From positions 6,434,501 to 6,498,500 of the forward strand of contig NZ_CP097322.1 in assembly GCF_023515955.1 (NCBI RefSeq): a stretch of DNA of 64,000 nt. The letters run 5' to 3'. The DNA is from Streptomyces sp. RerS4. GTDB lineage: Bacteria; Actinomycetota; Actinomycetes; Streptomycetales; Streptomycetaceae. The notes beneath the pieces are model-generated. The model did no database searches. It saw only the letters and a list, made by a program, of their open reading frames with translations, and was not told where the DNA came from. Each line of letters opens with the position of its first letter. Within the stretch, counting starts at the first letter, position 1. Made by a program: the position numbers and the translations under genes. Positions 2,536 to 22,318 of this stretch are shown piece after piece.

Positions 2536-3966
2536 GGCCGCCTCCGCGAGACGGGTGGGCGGCAGGTACTCGCGCAGCAGCGTGCGGTGCCACCACGCAC
2601 CCGTCTCGCGCAGCTCGCGCCAGGTGGTGAACCGGTAGCGGTAGAGCCTGGCGCGGACGTAACGCGGCGGGGCGTCCGGGAAGGGGTTGTGGCGCAGCAG
2701 CCGCAGCGTGTCCCGGTCGCCCACCAACAGCCGCTCCACGAACGGCCCGAACCAGTCCCGCGCGTAGGCCGGCGACAGCGCCGCGAACCACATCAGCCAG
2801 TCGAGGCGCAGATGGTACGGGGCGAACTGGCGCGGGATCCGGCGCGGTTCGCCCGGCTTGCCCTTGAAGCCGTACTCCCGCCACGTGCCGCCCTCCGCCT
2901 CGTCGCGCGGCACCCGGTCCGCCGTCCCCTCCACCACCACCTCGTCGCGGATGCGGCCGACCGTGCCGAAGGCCCCGTAGGTGTTGACCAGGTGGAAGGA
3001 GTCGAAGGAGCGGTTCATCACCTGGCGCCGCGAGATCAGGTTGGCCACCGGATGCCGGCTCAGCACGAGCACCAGCACGGTCACCGCGCACACCACGATC
3101 ACGTACCAGAGCGGCGCCCCGCGCGAGGCGGCCGCGGGCGGCGCTCCCGCGAGGCCCGTGAAGTCGACGGCCGACAGGGCGAGCACGATGGTCAGCCAGT
3201 TCAACCAGGCGAAGTTGCCCGAGAGCACCAGCCACAACTGGGTGGCCACCATGAGCCCGGCGGCGTACGAGGCGATCGGCTGCGGGGTGAACAGCAGTAC
3301 GGGCACCACCAGCTGGGTCACGTGGTTCGCCGCGCACTCCACCCGGTGCAGGGGCCGGGGCAGATGGTGGAAGAACCAGCTGAGCGGGCCCGGCATCGGC
3401 TGCGTCTCGTGGTGGTAGTACAGGCAGGTCAGCTTGCGCCAGCAGGCGTCGCCCCGCATCTTGATCAACCCGGCGCCGAATTCGACCCGGAACAACACCC
3501 ACCGCAGCAGCCACAGCATCAACACGGGTGGACCGACGTGCGCGTTGCCGAGGAATACGGCCAGGAACCCGACCTCCAGCAGCAGCGACTCCCAGCCGAA
3601 CGAGTACCAGGTCTGGCCCACGTTGACGATGGACAGGTACAGCAGCCACAGCACCGCCCACATTCCCATCGCCGCGCCCAGCGGCACCATATCGCCCACG
3701 CCGGCCGCGAGCGCCGCCGCGATCACCGCCCCGCTCCAGGCGCAGGTCGCGAAGAGCCGGTCCGAGTAGCGCAGTTGGAACAGGCTCGGGGCGTGCCGGA
3801 AGGGGACGTAGCGGACGTAGCGCGGGACGGGCAGCATGCCGTGCGCCCCGATCAGGGCGCGGAACTGGAGGGCGGCTCCGACGAAGGCGCAGAGGTAGAC
3901 ACCGGCCAGGGCCCGCTGGAAGACCAGCCGGCTCAGCCAGTAGCCGGGTGCCGTGAACCAGTCCAT
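2518..3966 (-). CDS. Lipase maturation factor family membrane protein
   Basis: 482 aa, with several hydrophobic helices in the first two thirds and a soluble C-terminal part rich in W, R and Y. Conserved segments of the lipase maturation factor (LMF1-like) family are visible: F-G-W-E-S-L-L-L-E-V-G-F-L (about residue 130), R-W-V-L-F-R-V-E-F-G-A-G-L-I-K (about 165), C-L-Y-Y-H-H-E-T-Q-P-M-P (about 190) and N-F-A-W-L-N-W-L-T. The ATG is preceded by GGAGGGG, close-spaced, 11 bp after the DUF1990 stop. It is the last gene of a three-gene operon headed by the YndJ-like gene and the twin palindromes. In eukaryotes LMF1 helps fold lipases; the bacterial role is not established. Confidence 0.85.
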   Translation of the reverse strand: MDWFTAPGYWLSRLVFQRALAGVYLCAFVGAALQFRALIGAHGMLPVPRYVRYVPFRHAPSLFQLRYSDRLFATCAWSGAVIAAALAAGVGDMVPLGAAMGMWAVLWLLYLSIVNVGQTWYSFGWESLLLEVGFLAVFLGNAHVGPPVLMLWLLRWVLFRVEFGAGLIKMRGDACWRKLTCLYYHHETQPMPGPLSWFFHHLPRPLHRVECAANHVTQLVVPVLLFTPQPIASYAAGLMVATQLWLVLSGNFAWLNWLTIVLALSAVDFTGLAGAPPAAASRGAPLWYVIVVCAVTVLVLVLSRHPVANLISRRQVMNRSFDSFHLVNTYGAFGTVGRIRDEVVVEGTADRVPRDEAEGGTWREYGFKGKPGEPRRIPRQFAPYHLRLDWLMWFAALSPAYARDWFGPFVERLLVGDRDTLRLLRHNPFPDAPPRYVRARLYRYRFTTWRELRETGAWWHRTLLREYLPPTRLAEAASAEPE

Positions 3967-16949: not shown

Positions 16950-17828
16950 ATGAAAAATGACGAGCAGACAGTAGGGCGACGCATGCTCCTGCGTACAGCC
17001 GTCTTCCTCGGAATCGCCGCCGCCTCCGGACTCCTCACCGGGGGCGAAGCGGACACCCCCGGCTCGCCGACCGCCTCCGGACCCGCCCCGGCCGGCGGGC
17101 CCGGCGCCGGAGGGGTCCCCGGGCTGCGTCCCGCCGGGCCGCCGGAGAAGTCCTACCGCCTGCGACCCATGACCGCCGAGGCCCCCGCCCGGCCGCCCAC
17201 CGTCAAACCCGCCGTCCGCAACCGACCCATCCTGGAACTCCCGTCCGACGCGGCCCACGCCTCCGCCATGGTGCTCACCTTCGACGACGGCCCGGACCCG
17301 CGCTACACCCCGGCCATCCTGGACGTCCTGGCCCGGTACGGGGTCCGCGCGATGTTCTTCGTCTGCGGGGAGATGGCCGGCGAACACCCCGACCTGCTGC
17401 GCCGGATGGTCACCGAGGGCCATGTCATCGGCAACCACACTTGGACCCACCCGCTCATCCCCACCCTGGGCCGGTCCGCCCTCGAAGCCGAGATCGGGCG
17501 CACGAGCGAGGTCGTACGGCAGACCGTGGGGGAGCCCCCGCTGTGGTTCCGGGCCCCCTACGGGGCCTGGAACCGGGCCGCCTTCGAGATCGGGGCCGAC
17601 CTGGGCATGGAGCCCCTCGCCTGGACCGTGGACACCCTCGACTGGAAGGAACCCGGCACGGCCACGATCGTCTCCCGGGTCATGGAGGGCGCTGGCCCCG
17701 GGGTGATCGTGCTGAACCACGACGCCGGCGGCGACCGCACCCAAAGCGTCCACGCCCTGGCCACCTACCTCCCCCAACTCCTCGCCCAGGGCTACCGCCT
17801 GACCCTCCCCACCCACCCACCCCGCTGA
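16950..17828 (+). CDS. Polysaccharide deacetylase (CE4/NodB) family protein
   Basis: 292 aa. The N-terminus G-R-R-M-L-L-R-T-A plus hydrophobic stretch looks like a twin-arginine or Sec export signal; starting at 16950 keeps the arginine pair, whereas the ATG at 16983 would lose it. A proline-rich linker (25-90) precedes the NodB domain: T-F-D-D-G-P-D-P (metal and catalytic aspartates, about 111), H-T-W-T-H-P (metal histidines, about 157), R-A-P-Y-G-A-W (about 200), and L-N-H-D-A-G-G-D. It removes acetyl groups from cell-wall or chitin-like glycans outside the cell. No ribosome site is seen; the upstream DNA is unusually A/T-rich (16935-16960). Confidence 0.92.
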   Translation: MKNDEQTVGRRMLLRTAVFLGIAAASGLLTGGEADTPGSPTASGPAPAGGPGAGGVPGLRPAGPPEKSYRLRPMTAEAPARPPTVKPAVRNRPILELPSDAAHASAMVLTFDDGPDPRYTPAILDVLARYGVRAMFFVCGEMAGEHPDLLRRMVTEGHVIGNHTWTHPLIPTLGRSALEAEIGRTSEVVRQTVGEPPLWFRAPYGAWNRAAFEIGADLGMEPLAWTVDTLDWKEPGTATIVSRVMEGAGPGVIVLNHDAGGDRTQSVHALATYLPQLLAQGYRLTLPTHPPR

Positions 17829-17884: not shown

Positions 17885-18553
17885 TCAGCGGGTGGTGACC
17901 ATGCGGGCGAAGACCACTACGTTGCCGTCGTAGCCCTTCGCCTTGGAGTAGCCGCCGCCGCAGGTGATCACGCGGAGCTCCGGGTGGCCCGTGTCCCCGT
18001 ACACGCGGGAGCCGGGGAAGGCGTCCTTCGAGAACACCTCCACCCCGTACACCTCGAACACCGCCGTGCGTCCGTCGTAGCGCTGCACCTCGACCTGCTG
18101 GCCCGGCTTCAACGAGCCGAGGCCGTAGAAGACCGCCGGGCCCTGCGCGTTGTCCACGTGGCCGACGATCACGGACGAGCCCTTTTGGCCCGGCGAAATG
18201 CCGTTCAGGTACCAGCCCGCCAGGTTCCGTTCCTGCGGGGGCGGCGCTTCGATCCAGCCCTGAGCGTCCAGCCCGACCGTCATCACCGGCGCGTCCACGT
18301 TGATCGCCGGAATCCGGATGCGCTGCACCGACGAGTGCTCCAGCACCTCCATGCCCGCCGCCGGCGTCGGCGGATTGGCCGGCAACTGGTCGGCGCGCAC
18401 GGCGACGGCCGCCGCGGCCGTCGGCTGCGGCGGCCCGTCCTCGGTACCTGCCCCGTTCCGCATCATGGCGAGGCCGCTGAGCATGACCATCGCGAGGACG
18501 CCCCAGGGGGAGCGTCGTCTCCTCGAAGGCAGCTCACTCTCGTCCTCGGTCAT
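17885..18553 (-). CDS. Class F sortase
   Basis: 222 aa. GGGAG sits four nt before the ATG. An N-terminal membrane anchor (about 16-31) precedes the sortase barrel with the catalytic triad in place: His132 in G-H-V-D-N, Cys198 in V-I-T-C-G-G, Arg217 in V-F-A-R. The motif T-C-G-G and the short size fit class F of high-GC Gram-positives. It is a membrane-bound transpeptidase that should link surface proteins to the wall. The two proteins encoded next to it (18939 and 19621) lack LPXTG but share a C-terminal GG[IL]GGS plus hydrophobic segment and arginine tail, so they are the natural substrate candidates. Confidence 0.93.
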   Translation of the reverse strand: MTEDESELPSRRRRSPWGVLAMVMLSGLAMMRNGAGTEDGPPQPTAAAAVAVRADQLPANPPTPAAGMEVLEHSSVQRIRIPAINVDAPVMTVGLDAQGWIEAPPPQERNLAGWYLNGISPGQKGSSVIVGHVDNAQGPAVFYGLGSLKPGQQVEVQRYDGRTAVFEVYGVEVFSKDAFPGSRVYGDTGHPELRVITCGGGYSKAKGYDGNVVVFARMVTTR

Positions 18554-18938
18554 GGCTCTCCCTTCCCGACGCGGGGGTCCCGACCCGCGTTCCAGTCCCT
18601 CCCCGGTACGCCCTTCTTCACGCACGTTAAGGCCGCTCGCGCGGGACGGCGATCGGGGACGTGCGAACGGGTGGTGAGTGGGCGGCGGGAGGGCGGCGGG
18701 AAGGCGATGCGGCCGGAAGGGGTGCGCCCATCCAGGTAATCGTCACATAAACGCCTGACGGCTCGTGACCTGCGGATCCGTCAGATGATCGGCTCGCGCT
18801 TCGGCGTGTCGCTCAACCGGGCGGCCCAAAGGCGAACATGCGCCGGATGCGACAGGCCCCGAGGGTTCGTGATGGGAGGCGTTCTCGTCGATCTTCCCGG
18901 GCCACCGCTCCGGGGCGCTTCCCGCTGGAGGTTCCACC
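18554..18938. other. Gene-free divergent region upstream of the sortase and a secreted protein
   Basis: About 385 bp between divergent starts. It contains a G-rich stretch (18660-18720), then a more A/T-rich segment (18735-18760, with GTCACATAAACG) likely to carry promoters. A weak inverted repeat CTGACGG / CCGTCAG (18755-18784) is present. No ORF with coding character. Confidence 0.5.
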
Positions 18939-19439
18939 ATGCGTGTCTTCCGCGCTCTCACCGTGACCGCGGCCGCTTGCGCCGCGATCGGGCTCAGTGC
19001 CACGTTCGCCGCCGCGAACCCCCCGCAGGGCGGCGGGAACGGGCCCAGCAACGTCACGGTCAACCCGTACTCCGTGCACCAGGGCGCCTCGATGCAGGTC
19101 AGCGCCTCGGGCTGTGGCCACGGCGGCACCGTCTGGTCGCACGGCAACTTCCCGCAGACCAACCTGTCGGCCGGCTCCATCGGCTTCGCGACCGTCCGGA
19201 TCTTCAACCACGCCTCGCCCGGCAACCACACGCTGTCGGTGAAGTGCCACGACAACAACCTGGTCGCCACCCACCGCTTCACGATCCTGCGCGGGAACGG
19301 CGCCCAGGGCGGCATCGGCGGCTCCTTCGGCCCGTCCACGGTCGAGACGGTCATCGGTTCCGGTCTGGTCGGGGCGGCGGCGCTGGGCGCCGGTGTGCAC
19401 GTGATCCGGCGTCGTCGTCCGGCGGGCAGCAGGGCCTGA
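18939..19439 (+). CDS. Secreted protein with C-terminal membrane/sorting-like tail (sortase neighbour 1)
   Basis: 166 aa. GGAGG lies seven nt before the ATG. A Sec signal peptide (about 1-26, A-A-A-N cleavage) is followed by a small beta-type domain with two cysteines (S-A-S-G-C-G and S-V-K-C-H, likely a disulfide), then G-G-I-G-G-S at about 128, exactly 27 residues, and R-R-R-R near the end. The hydrophobic tail plus arginines has the layout of a cell-wall sorting signal, although no LPXTG or LAXTG is present. It lies next to the class F sortase. Function unknown; a surface protein is likely. Confidence 0.85.
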   Translation: MRVFRALTVTAAACAAIGLSATFAAANPPQGGGNGPSNVTVNPYSVHQGASMQVSASGCGHGGTVWSHGNFPQTNLSAGSIGFATVRIFNHASPGNHTLSVKCHDNNLVATHRFTILRGNGAQGGIGGSFGPSTVETVIGSGLVGAAALGAGVHVIRRRRPAGSRA

Positions 19440-19620
19440 GGAGGTCGCCCACGGGTTCTCCGCTCCGCGCCCCCGTGCTTCCCACGCCCCGCGTTCCGTG
19501 CTCCGGTTCCGCTCGTCCTGCCGTCCCTTCCCCCCCGGCCCCGGCCGACCGCCGGCCGTTTGGGATCCCGCCCGGGACCCGAAGCGGCCGGCCGTCGCCG
19601 GGGGCTCGCCGTCGGGGGAG

Positions 19621-20289
19621 TCAGTGGTCGCGGGCCGAGCCCCGCCGGCGCACGGCGTACGCCGCCCCGGCGGCCGCCGCGAGGAAGAGGCCCGCGCCCG
19701 CGCCGAGTTCCAGCAGGTCCATGCCGGCCACGCTGCCGCCGAGTCCGCCGCGCACCCCGAGGCTCGCACCCTGGGACGCGACGGTGCCCGTGACGGTGCC
19801 CGTCGTCGTACGCGTGGCGGTGGTGCGCGGGATGGCGCCCGTGGTGCTCCGGGGAGTGGCGGGTGAGGTGGTACCGGTCCGGGGGCCGCTCGTCGAACTG
19901 GTGCTGGGCTGCGAGGTGGTGCCGCCGGCGATGGTGAGGTCGGCGGAGGCGTTCTCCCCGTTGCAGGTGAAGGTGACGGAGTACTGGGCTCCGCGCCGGG
20001 CGTCCCGGTCCACGGTGACCCGTACGGTCTGCCCGCGCGCGATGCTCACGGTGTCGAAGACACCGGAGGAGGCGGTGGCGTAGGCGGCGTCGCAGCCGGT
20101 CACGGACAACACGGTCTGGCCGCCGGGGGCCACCGTCGAAGGGGTGACGGCGAAGCCGAAAGAGGCGACGGCGGGCGCCGCCGCGAGCGCGGCGGGTGCG
20201 GCGGGCACGGCGAAGGCGCCGAACGCGAGGGCGAGGCCCGCGGCGCCGGCGATCGGCAGGGCTGTGGCGGAGCTGCGTATCGCACCCAT
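19621..20289 (-). CDS. Secreted protein with C-terminal membrane/sorting-like tail (sortase neighbour 2)
   Basis: 222 aa. GGAG is eight nt before the ATG. Signal peptide (about 1-38), then a small domain resembling the product of 18939 (G-G-Q-T-V-L-S-V-T-G-C and Y-S-V-T-F-T-C, again a likely disulfide), a Thr/Ser/Pro-rich linker (about 130-180) suited to a wall-spanning stalk and glycosylation, then G-G-L-G-G-S, exactly 27 residues, and an R-R-R tail. The same arrangement as its neighbour supports a common anchoring route. Convergent with 18939; function unknown. Confidence 0.83.
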   Translation of the reverse strand: MGAIRSSATALPIAGAAGLALAFGAFAVPAAPAALAAAPAVASFGFAVTPSTVAPGGQTVLSVTGCDAAYATASSGVFDTVSIARGQTVRVTVDRDARRGAQYSVTFTCNGENASADLTIAGGTTSQPSTSSTSGPRTGTTSPATPRSTTGAIPRTTATRTTTGTVTGTVASQGASLGVRGGLGGSVAGMDLLELGAGAGLFLAAAAGAAYAVRRRGSARDH

Positions 20290-21305: not shown

Positions 21306-21980
21306 TCAGCGGGGGCGCAGCGCGACGATCGCGAGCACGGCGGGGGCGGCGGTCATGAGCGTGAAGGTGACCGGGGAGATGTGGTGTTCCTTGGGTTTGC
21401 GGGTGGCCGCGTGGTACGCGGGCCGGGCGACCGGCTTCGCCTGAACCGGTACGGGCGGTGGCGAGGACGGCGGCGGCGGTGGGGTCGGCTCGGGGGCGGG
21501 AGGCTTGGGCGCCGGTGGCGGAGGTGGGGCCGGTGCGGCCTTGACGACCGGTGGGGACGGCTTCGGTACGGGCTGGGGCGGGGCGGGCGTCGGTCGCGGC
21601 GGGGTCGGTTTCGGTTTCGGCGGTGGTGTGGGGGTGGGCGTCGGGGTGGGGGACGGTGTGGGTTTCGGTGGGGTGGGCTTCGGTGGACACGGCGGGGGAG
21701 GGGGCGGTGGGCAGTGGTGGCCGTGCCCGTGCCCGTGCCCGTGGCCGTGACCATGGCCGTTTCCGTGGCCGCCGCCTTGGCCGCCGCCGTGATGTCCGCC
21801 ACCCCGACCGGCTCCGGCGGAGCCGCCGCCGGCGGCCGCGAACGCGTGGACGAGGGGCGAGCCGTCGCCGGCGTCGATCGTCACGTAGGCGCAGCTATCG
21901 GCCACGGCCGGTGTGGCGGTCAGGGCCGCCCACAGCAGGACAGGGACCACCAGCAGGCGCCTGGCACAGGGTGTGTTCAC
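21306..21980 (-). CDS. Secreted His/Gly- and Pro-rich surface protein
   Basis: 224 aa from a GTG. A signal peptide (about 8-28, A-V-A-D) leads into a small region with one Cys (D-S-C-A-Y-V), a Gly/His tract with eight consecutive H-G-type units ending H-H-C (about 60-88), then a long Pro/Lys/Thr stalk (about 90-190), and a hydrophobic C-terminus followed by R-P-R. The His tract could bind Zn, Ni or Cu, and the stalk could cross the wall. The ribosome site is weak. Located just upstream of DUF4239 in one operon; no family assignment. Confidence 0.78.
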   Translation of the reverse strand: MNTPCARRLLVVPVLLWAALTATPAVADSCAYVTIDAGDGSPLVHAFAAAGGGSAGAGRGGGHHGGGQGGGHGNGHGHGHGHGHGHGHHCPPPPPPPCPPKPTPPKPTPSPTPTPTPTPPPKPKPTPPRPTPAPPQPVPKPSPPVVKAAPAPPPPPAPKPPAPEPTPPPPPSSPPPVPVQAKPVARPAYHAATRKPKEHHISPVTFTLMTAAPAVLAIVALRPR

Positions 21981-22318
21981 CCCGGGAGCATGGGGTCGCG
22001 CGCGCCCGCGCACGTGAGGCCCGGCTCGGGTTCGCCTGATCGGGCGGAGCGTGGACCGTAGAGGTTTGAGCCATGTTCTGATCGGATCAGACCGCTTGAG
22101 AGTCAATTCCTAAAAGGTATTTGTCTGTTTTTCGACCATGGCTGTCCGGACTCGTGTGTGCCTTTGATGTGTGACCAAGAACGGATCGCCAATTTCCGCT
22201 TTTGCTCGCCCTGTTGGGCAATGATCAGTACATTCGGCTCGGACAGGAGTCCGAGCGCCGTCCCACCTCCTGGACGGACCGGAACACGACACGGCACGAC
22301 TACGGCTTGGAGACCCCG
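21981..22318. other. Gene-free divergent region with A/T-rich promoter segment
   Basis: About 340 bp. The segment 22085-22140 is far richer in A/T than its surroundings and includes TTGAGA followed about 16 bp later by GGTATT, a plausible promoter for the rightward methyltransferase-GGDEF/EAL operon. An inverted repeat GCCC-TGTT-GGGC lies near 22210. No coding frame is convincing. Confidence 0.45.

Follow-up and report, generated by a model that had tools for sequence, protein, structure and literature searches.

Which C-terminal feature could mark a protein as a substrate of a class F sortase? This question is raised by a locus of Streptomyces sp. RerS4 in which two proteins with no LPXTG-like motif lie beside a class F sortase gene. 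LPXTG and LAXTG are described as the signals of class A and class E sortases, respectively, and Streptomyces coelicolor is predicted to encode five class F and two class E enzymes (PMC5148588). The role of class F has been called unknown in print (PMC13251363, PMC6998099), and removing the full set of four class F genes from Actinoplanes missouriensis is reported to have given no phenotype (PMC13251363). In the open-access literature on class F and on sortases, we found no paper that states a GGxGGS or GVDTG signal.

A class F sortase gene and two neighbours with C-terminal glycine motifs

The window, the whole 64,000-nucleotide stretch of DNA that was analysed, spans positions 6434501-6498500 of a 7.54 Mb genome. 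Within it, srtF (17885..18625, minus strand) encodes 246 residues from a GTG start, with an ATG at 18553 that by eye is a possible later start. The SrtF sequence matches PF04203 and scores 211.7 bits against the class F profile NF033748 (cut-off 166), confirming the assignment to class F made in an earlier note on this DNA. The gene for protein A (18939..19439, plus strand; 166 residues by translation) is divergent from srtF and converges with the gene for protein B beyond it (19621..20289, minus strand; 222 residues by translation, ATG at 20289). Both proteins are thus encoded on one side of the sortase gene and do not flank it, contrary to the earlier description; on the other side lies a polysaccharide deacetylase gene (16950-17828, plus strand; profile matches). 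This gene adjoins srtF, a look-alike is found beside the sortase gene of a related locus, L083, and its product may act on the wall. A further gene in the window (21306-22106, minus strand) encodes a Pro- and His/Gly-rich protein with a C-terminal helix and ALRPR; family profile searches gave no match over cut-off for this protein, and comparable tails occur near the sortase in L025, L034 and L088.

Protein A ends ...GAQ-GGIGGS-FGPSTVETVIGSGLVGAAALGAGVHVI-RRRRPAGSRA and protein B ends ...GVR-GGLGGS-VAGMDLLELGAGAGLFLAAAAGAAYAV-RRRGSARDH. As originally noted, the glycine motif of A (residues 124-129; 19308..19325, plus strand) and that of B (residues 181-186; 19732..19749, minus strand) are each followed by 27 residues, by translation and hand count, and then by RRRR in A (19407..19418, plus strand) or RRR in B (19642..19650, minus strand). 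Both proteins begin with a signal peptide, as judged by eye. In A this is followed by a beta-sandwich domain, the pre-membrane motif, a membrane helix and the Arg tail, and in B by a domain with two invariant Cys residues, a low-complexity stalk, the motif, a membrane helix and the Arg tail. The AF2 model of A places strands between residues 37 and 117 in a beta-sandwich with a pLDDT of about 90, and pLDDT is below 50 from residue 123 onward, including the motif and the helix at residues 134-150. A fold search with A returned weak matches, mostly to beta-sandwich and Ig-like domains with one under E 0.001, and because these matches are weak we assign no function to A from its fold.

Neither protein has an LPXTG-like pentapeptide before the helix, and a pattern check of the last 60 residues of each found no LPxTG, LAxTG or NPxT[GN], in agreement with the initial observation. 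Relatives of A and B in plasmid records are unannotated or called 'hypothetical protein', and none of these records carries an informative name.

Predicted fold and active site of SrtF

Residues 98-245 of the AF2 model of SrtF can be aligned with sortase structures from several classes, the best alignment covering 128 residues at Z 14.9 and rmsd 2.5. The single SrtF sequence gave no match to solved structures at E<=0.01; the class F profile gave a sole match, 4d70, titled Sortase D5. The putative catalytic histidine, His156 of a GHVD stretch (18158..18160, minus strand), is invariant in alignment A2 and is His in 41 of the 43 rows of the class F alignment A4, with gaps in the other two. The putative nucleophile, Cys222 of TCGG (17960..17962, minus strand), is Cys in 43 of 43 rows of A4. 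By conservation and structure prediction, SrtF has the sortase fold with the putative catalytic His and Cys residues.

Where other sortase classes have the catalytic Arg, SrtF has Asn235 (17921..17923, minus strand), which pairs with the invariant Arg of class E sortases (hhalign) and is Asn in 42 and Ser in one of the 43 rows of A4. SrtF thus carries the replacement of Arg by Asn reported for Actinobacteria, a change in class F that is already in print (PMC6998099). An Arg four residues before the Cys is conserved in 40 of the 43 rows, and the class E sortases examined carry Thr there; this Arg could stand in for the lost catalytic Arg. Another class F-like sortase, encoded at L278:2222-3007, has TYGG at the expected Cys and is possibly inactive.

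Conservation of the motif among related loci

Related loci were taken as the best 80 of 460, and because only these were kept they are close relatives. Among the nearest loci that bear a name, almost all come from Streptomyces, and the genus given below to the related genomes is based on this. A GG[LIV]GGS motif before the helix and Arg tail is present in the A protein of all 80 loci (79 by script, L083 by eye) and, by script, in the B protein of 56; among the other 24 loci, some contigs end early. The spacer is 27 residues in 73 of 79 A proteins (26 in three, 29 in three) and in 53 of 56 B proteins (28 in three), and by eye it is 30 in L083. The proposal that the spacer is exactly 27 therefore holds for A and B themselves but not as a rule, with 126 of the 135 A and B cases having this length and the remainder 26, 28 or 29. 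At the position of B in L083, an ORF (3053-3859) ends AGDGGSIAGFDLGEIGLG... with no Arg cluster, and perhaps has a decayed tail.

Across 37 aligned A rows, which are 36-88% identical to A and were selected with the motif as a requirement, 14 of the 166 columns do not vary, and the motif accounts for five of them (columns 124, 125, 127, 128 and 129; permutation p 0.0014). In 34 aligned B rows selected with the same requirement, 22 of 222 columns are invariant, again with five in the motif (G181, G182, G184, G185 and S186; permutation p 0.006). When the motif requirement was dropped, GGxGGS was found in 135 of the 146 anchored ORFs in the 80 loci, and the other 11 were by eye unrelated ORFs. Beneath the invariant residues the codons vary, with Ser encoded by both TCN and AGY. 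These analyses confirm that conservation of the motif exceeds chance. In alignment A6, row L049 includes masked residues.

Linkage of the tails to class F genes in Streptomyces

We built a tail profile, A3, from 29 tails. Over the whole 7.54 Mb genome at E<=1.1e-6, it finds four proteins: A, B, a protein with GVGGGT encoded next to a second class F gene, and an orphan with GGLGGS, 27 residues and RRR, for which the closest class F gene is 97 kb away. A third class F gene (L003) was considered a case without a signal, and this was rejected; its neighbour L003:2144-2827 (minus strand) has by eye HAGGGGM about 50 residues before RRRR. This HAGGGGM is a long-spacer form of the signal that lies beyond the reach of our script and was scored as lacking.

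In 148 genomes of the class, A3 at E<=1e-4 matches 12 of the 13 Streptomyces genomes and, weakly, two others. Of the 46 tails found at this threshold in the 12 Streptomyces genomes, 31 have a class F gene among the matches listed no more than 2 kb away, compared with 0.13 expected, and 15 are not within 2 kb of any such gene. For eight of these 15 distant tails, no class F gene was found in the 10-16 kb of surrounding DNA. Three of the 46 matches miss motif columns, and two of these three are near class F. Counted from the sortases, an A3 tail is found within 2 kb at 22 of the 61 class F places among the matches listed for the 12 genomes, and the majority of class F genes use forms other than this one. 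Distant tails would be expected for an enzyme acting in trans, and are not proof of it. Four orphan secreted proteins (L320-L322 and L324) have RGVMGG[LV]GG[AGS] tails ending SKPYRL, SKPHRL or AKPYRL, with no class F gene within the 10 kb examined around each.

Co-occurrence of the tails with class F and with a sortase subtype

Among the matches listed, class F is present in 291 of 296 Streptomyces genomes, and tails at E<=1e-5 are present in 262 of the 291 genomes with class F and in none of the five without it (Fisher 1.5e-5, uncorrected for kinship; the genome sets were compared by eye). Since the five genomes without class F comprise two close pairs and a fifth, they represent two or three lineages. 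In these five, the tail profile at E<=10 gives weak matches, the best at 0.008, and the 30 weak-match loci hold LAETG-type, LPxTG-type and other tails with no GGxGGS before the helix. Each of the five genomes retains two to five other sortases. Together with the 31 of 46 tails near class F, these counts speak against the motif being equally common far from sortases or in genomes without class F, a possibility that had been raised when the signal was first suggested.

Relatives of SrtF at E<=1e-70, a threshold chosen after the data had been seen, are present among the matches listed in 26 of 29 tail-bearing genomes (this genome and 28 taken at steps down the list) compared with two of 29 tail-less class F genomes (p 1e-10). 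At 1e-60, the same comparison gives 27 of 29 and six of 29 among the matches listed. As 26 of 29 is set against two of 29, the tails follow the SrtF subtype, not class F at large.

A wider class F signal and its relation to GVDTG_CTERM

Class F neighbours in other genera bear a related pre-membrane motif. A C-anchored neighbour lies within 1 kb of the class F gene at 90 of 112 loci, and the nearest such neighbour has [TAGSN]GxG before the helix in 78 of the 90 and lacks even this loose motif in 12. The other 22 loci have no such neighbour by script, and several of these have one further off or overlapping. When all candidates are counted, [TAGSN]GxG is found in 84 of 105, whereas in 40 arbitrary regions of 20 kb it is found in 10 of 38 anchored ORFs (p 1e-8), a contrast that is soft because the control ORFs include multi-span membrane proteins.

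The consensus was taken from 73 same-strand tails (62 distinct) that already had [TAGSN]GxG, with a hydrophobic or small residue two places before preferred. With T/A/G/S/N-G-x-G imposed in this way, the 62 distinct tails read G(52)-G(40)-V/A/P(55)-x-T(47)/A(11)/G(3)/S(1)-G-x-G-G(40). GGxGGS reads as the Streptomyces form of G-[VAP]-x-[T/A/G]-G-x-G-G in which Gly replaces Thr, and the intermediate forms RTGVGGG (L002), RAGAGGS (L355, L397) and RGGLGGS link it to the wider signal. The core of the signal extends three residues upstream of GGxGGS, as G-[VA]-x-[G/T/A]-G-x-G-G.

This wider signal is already modelled as an NCBIfam entry, the GVDTG_CTERM sorting domain (NF058571). Protein A scores 20.1 bits against its cut-off of 29 and protein B gives no match, which leaves both outside the family; five A orthologues by position (G086, G116, G143, G016 and G106) are marked in the genome scan as over the cut-off, at 28.6-30.2 bits. 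The suggestion in the earlier note of a new signal is to be narrowed to a diverged form of GVDTG_CTERM.

Over its cut-off, GVDTG_CTERM occurs in the 148 genomes at 51 places in 39 genomes, all of which have class F at E<=4e-41 among the matches listed (sets compared by eye). By eye, 38 of the 51 places have a listed class F gene at a distance of about 2 kb or less; among the 13 others, ten adjoin class F, one is beside a frame-broken class F gene, one (G095) is adjacent if the contig is circular and one is at a contig end. By a linkage criterion of our own, GVDTG_CTERM therefore lies beside class F at 50 of the 51 listed places, counting the frame-broken gene and the assumed circular join. At L427:6414-7276 (minus strand), a class F gene beside a GVDTG-type tail is divided over two reading frames. 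In 67 of the 148 genomes class F exceeds its own cut-off, 28 more than the 39 with over-cut-off GVDTG_CTERM among the matches listed, so that many class F genomes are without the latter.

We also chose 34 genomes that lack A3 tails, of which 29 have class F and five do not. GVDTG_CTERM is over cut-off in 14 of the 34, all of them among the 29 with class F, and 15 of the 29 are without either kind of tail at these thresholds. Class F lies within about 1.5 kb of 13 of the 18 GVDTG_CTERM places in these 34 genomes. The other five have no class F within that distance; one of them is an LAETG protein, and for the remaining four no class F was found within about 8 kb. The five Streptomyces genomes without class F gave no GVDTG_CTERM match at E<=1e-4.

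Proposed mechanism and alternative explanations

We propose, with a probability of roughly 80%, that A and B are substrates of the adjoining SrtF. According to this model, both proteins would be exported and would stay in the membrane through their C-terminal helix and Arg tail, leaving the linker G-[AV]-[QR]-G-G-[IL]-G-G-S exposed in front of the membrane. SrtF would read this linker as the Streptomyces form of the GVDTG-type signal found beside many Actinomycetes class F sortases, and would cut before the conserved Gly, at G|G in A and B and at T|G in most relatives; the residues on either side of the cut are placed by analogy with LPXT|G. The cut protein would be kept on Cys222 as a thioester and then passed to a cell-wall precursor. 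What the sequences and models show is the motif, its conservation, its linkage to and co-occurrence with class F, and the predicted fold and residues of the sortase; recognition of the motif by SrtF, cleavage of the bond and transfer to lipid II are inferred. GGxGGS is most likely a label read by the class F sortase, a reading that the genomes support well. The original suggestion that the motif is itself the recognition sequence is borne out in part: class F linkage, the failure to find such tails in the five Streptomyces genomes without class F, and subtype pairing argue for it, but the core is longer than the motif and most class F places are without such a tail.

It is unlikely that A and B are instead ordinary single-pass tail-anchored proteins in which the glycine motif serves as a flexible stalk or caps the helix and is never cut. 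A signal peptide, stalk, helix and Arg tail suffice for anchoring, a loose GxG match is present even among the anchored control ORFs (10 of 38), and roughly one tail in three lies away from class F, so that the dispersed tails could be read as a general stalk. However, five exact positions are kept through codon change, the tails are tightly linked to class F, and no such tail was found in the five Streptomyces genomes from which class F is absent, which speaks against a stalk.

A sorting enzyme other than class F, for instance a class E sortase, or an intramembrane protease of the kind that acts in the GlyGly-CTERM/rhombosortase system (PMC3237569), would make the proximity of class F incidental. 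The similar layout of GlyGly-CTERM proteins and the existence of tails distant from class F are compatible with this, but the five Streptomyces genomes that lack class F keep other sortases and LAETG-type tails with no GGxGGS tails found, the tails pair with a class F subtype, and among NCBIfam matches no GlyGly-CTERM match is listed for A or B at E<=0.1, nor for B at E<=1; we consider this explanation very improbable. SrtF could also use the motif to join proteins to one another or to a receptor other than lipid II, with A as a partner or acceptor and not a second substrate. That A and B both have the signal and lie together, that the active site has Asn for Arg, and that the literature we found names no class F acceptor for Streptomyces would all suit such a role, but the orphan tails resemble scattered substrates that a general wall sortase would serve, and we give this possibility little credence.

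Cleavage of A and B by SrtF, the reading we favour, can be placed in a broader picture to which we give slightly less than even odds. Actinobacterial class F enzymes may form a separate sorting system whose own glycine code, G-[VAP]-x-[T/A/G]-G-x-G-G, is recognised by an active site in which Asn, with the Arg four residues before the Cys, takes the place of the usual Arg; one Streptomyces subtype, having dropped the Thr, would use a glycyl-thioester and anchor both neighbouring and dispersed GGxGGS proteins. As a class F sortase of C. acnes is reported to use LPXTG (PMC13257024, PMC7913060), the claim of a glycine signal is limited to the groups sampled here.

A defined signal would name candidate substrates for class F, whose role publications describe as unknown, and would explain why searches for LPXTG-like motifs miss such proteins. 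It would also turn the class F question into a peptide-cleavage assay, and a sortase that cuts Gly-Gly could become a ligation tool.

Comparison with known systems

GlyGly-CTERM proteins have a glycine motif, a helix and an Arg tail, and are handled by a rhomboid protease (rhombosortase), not a sortase. A and B share all three features of the tail with that system. AMIS_11010 and AMIS_36440 of Actinoplanes missouriensis, suggested on the basis of their genomic neighbourhood as potential class F substrates lacking a pentapeptide (PMC13251363), resemble A and B as class F neighbours of this kind, but that paper names no motif for them and did not go on to study them. With LPXTG and LAXTG proteins, A and B have in common the order of motif, hydrophobic helix and basic tail and a sortase of the same predicted fold; they differ in having no Leu-Pro or Leu-Ala, no Thr before the cut, additional conserved Gly residues after it and a sortase of another class. 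GVDTG_CTERM (NF058571) differs from A and B, which have Gly for Thr before the conserved Gly, Ser after GxGG and scores below the cut-off. Layout and register are shared, with G-V-x-[T/G]-G-x-G-G, a helix and an Arg tail, beside a class F sortase.
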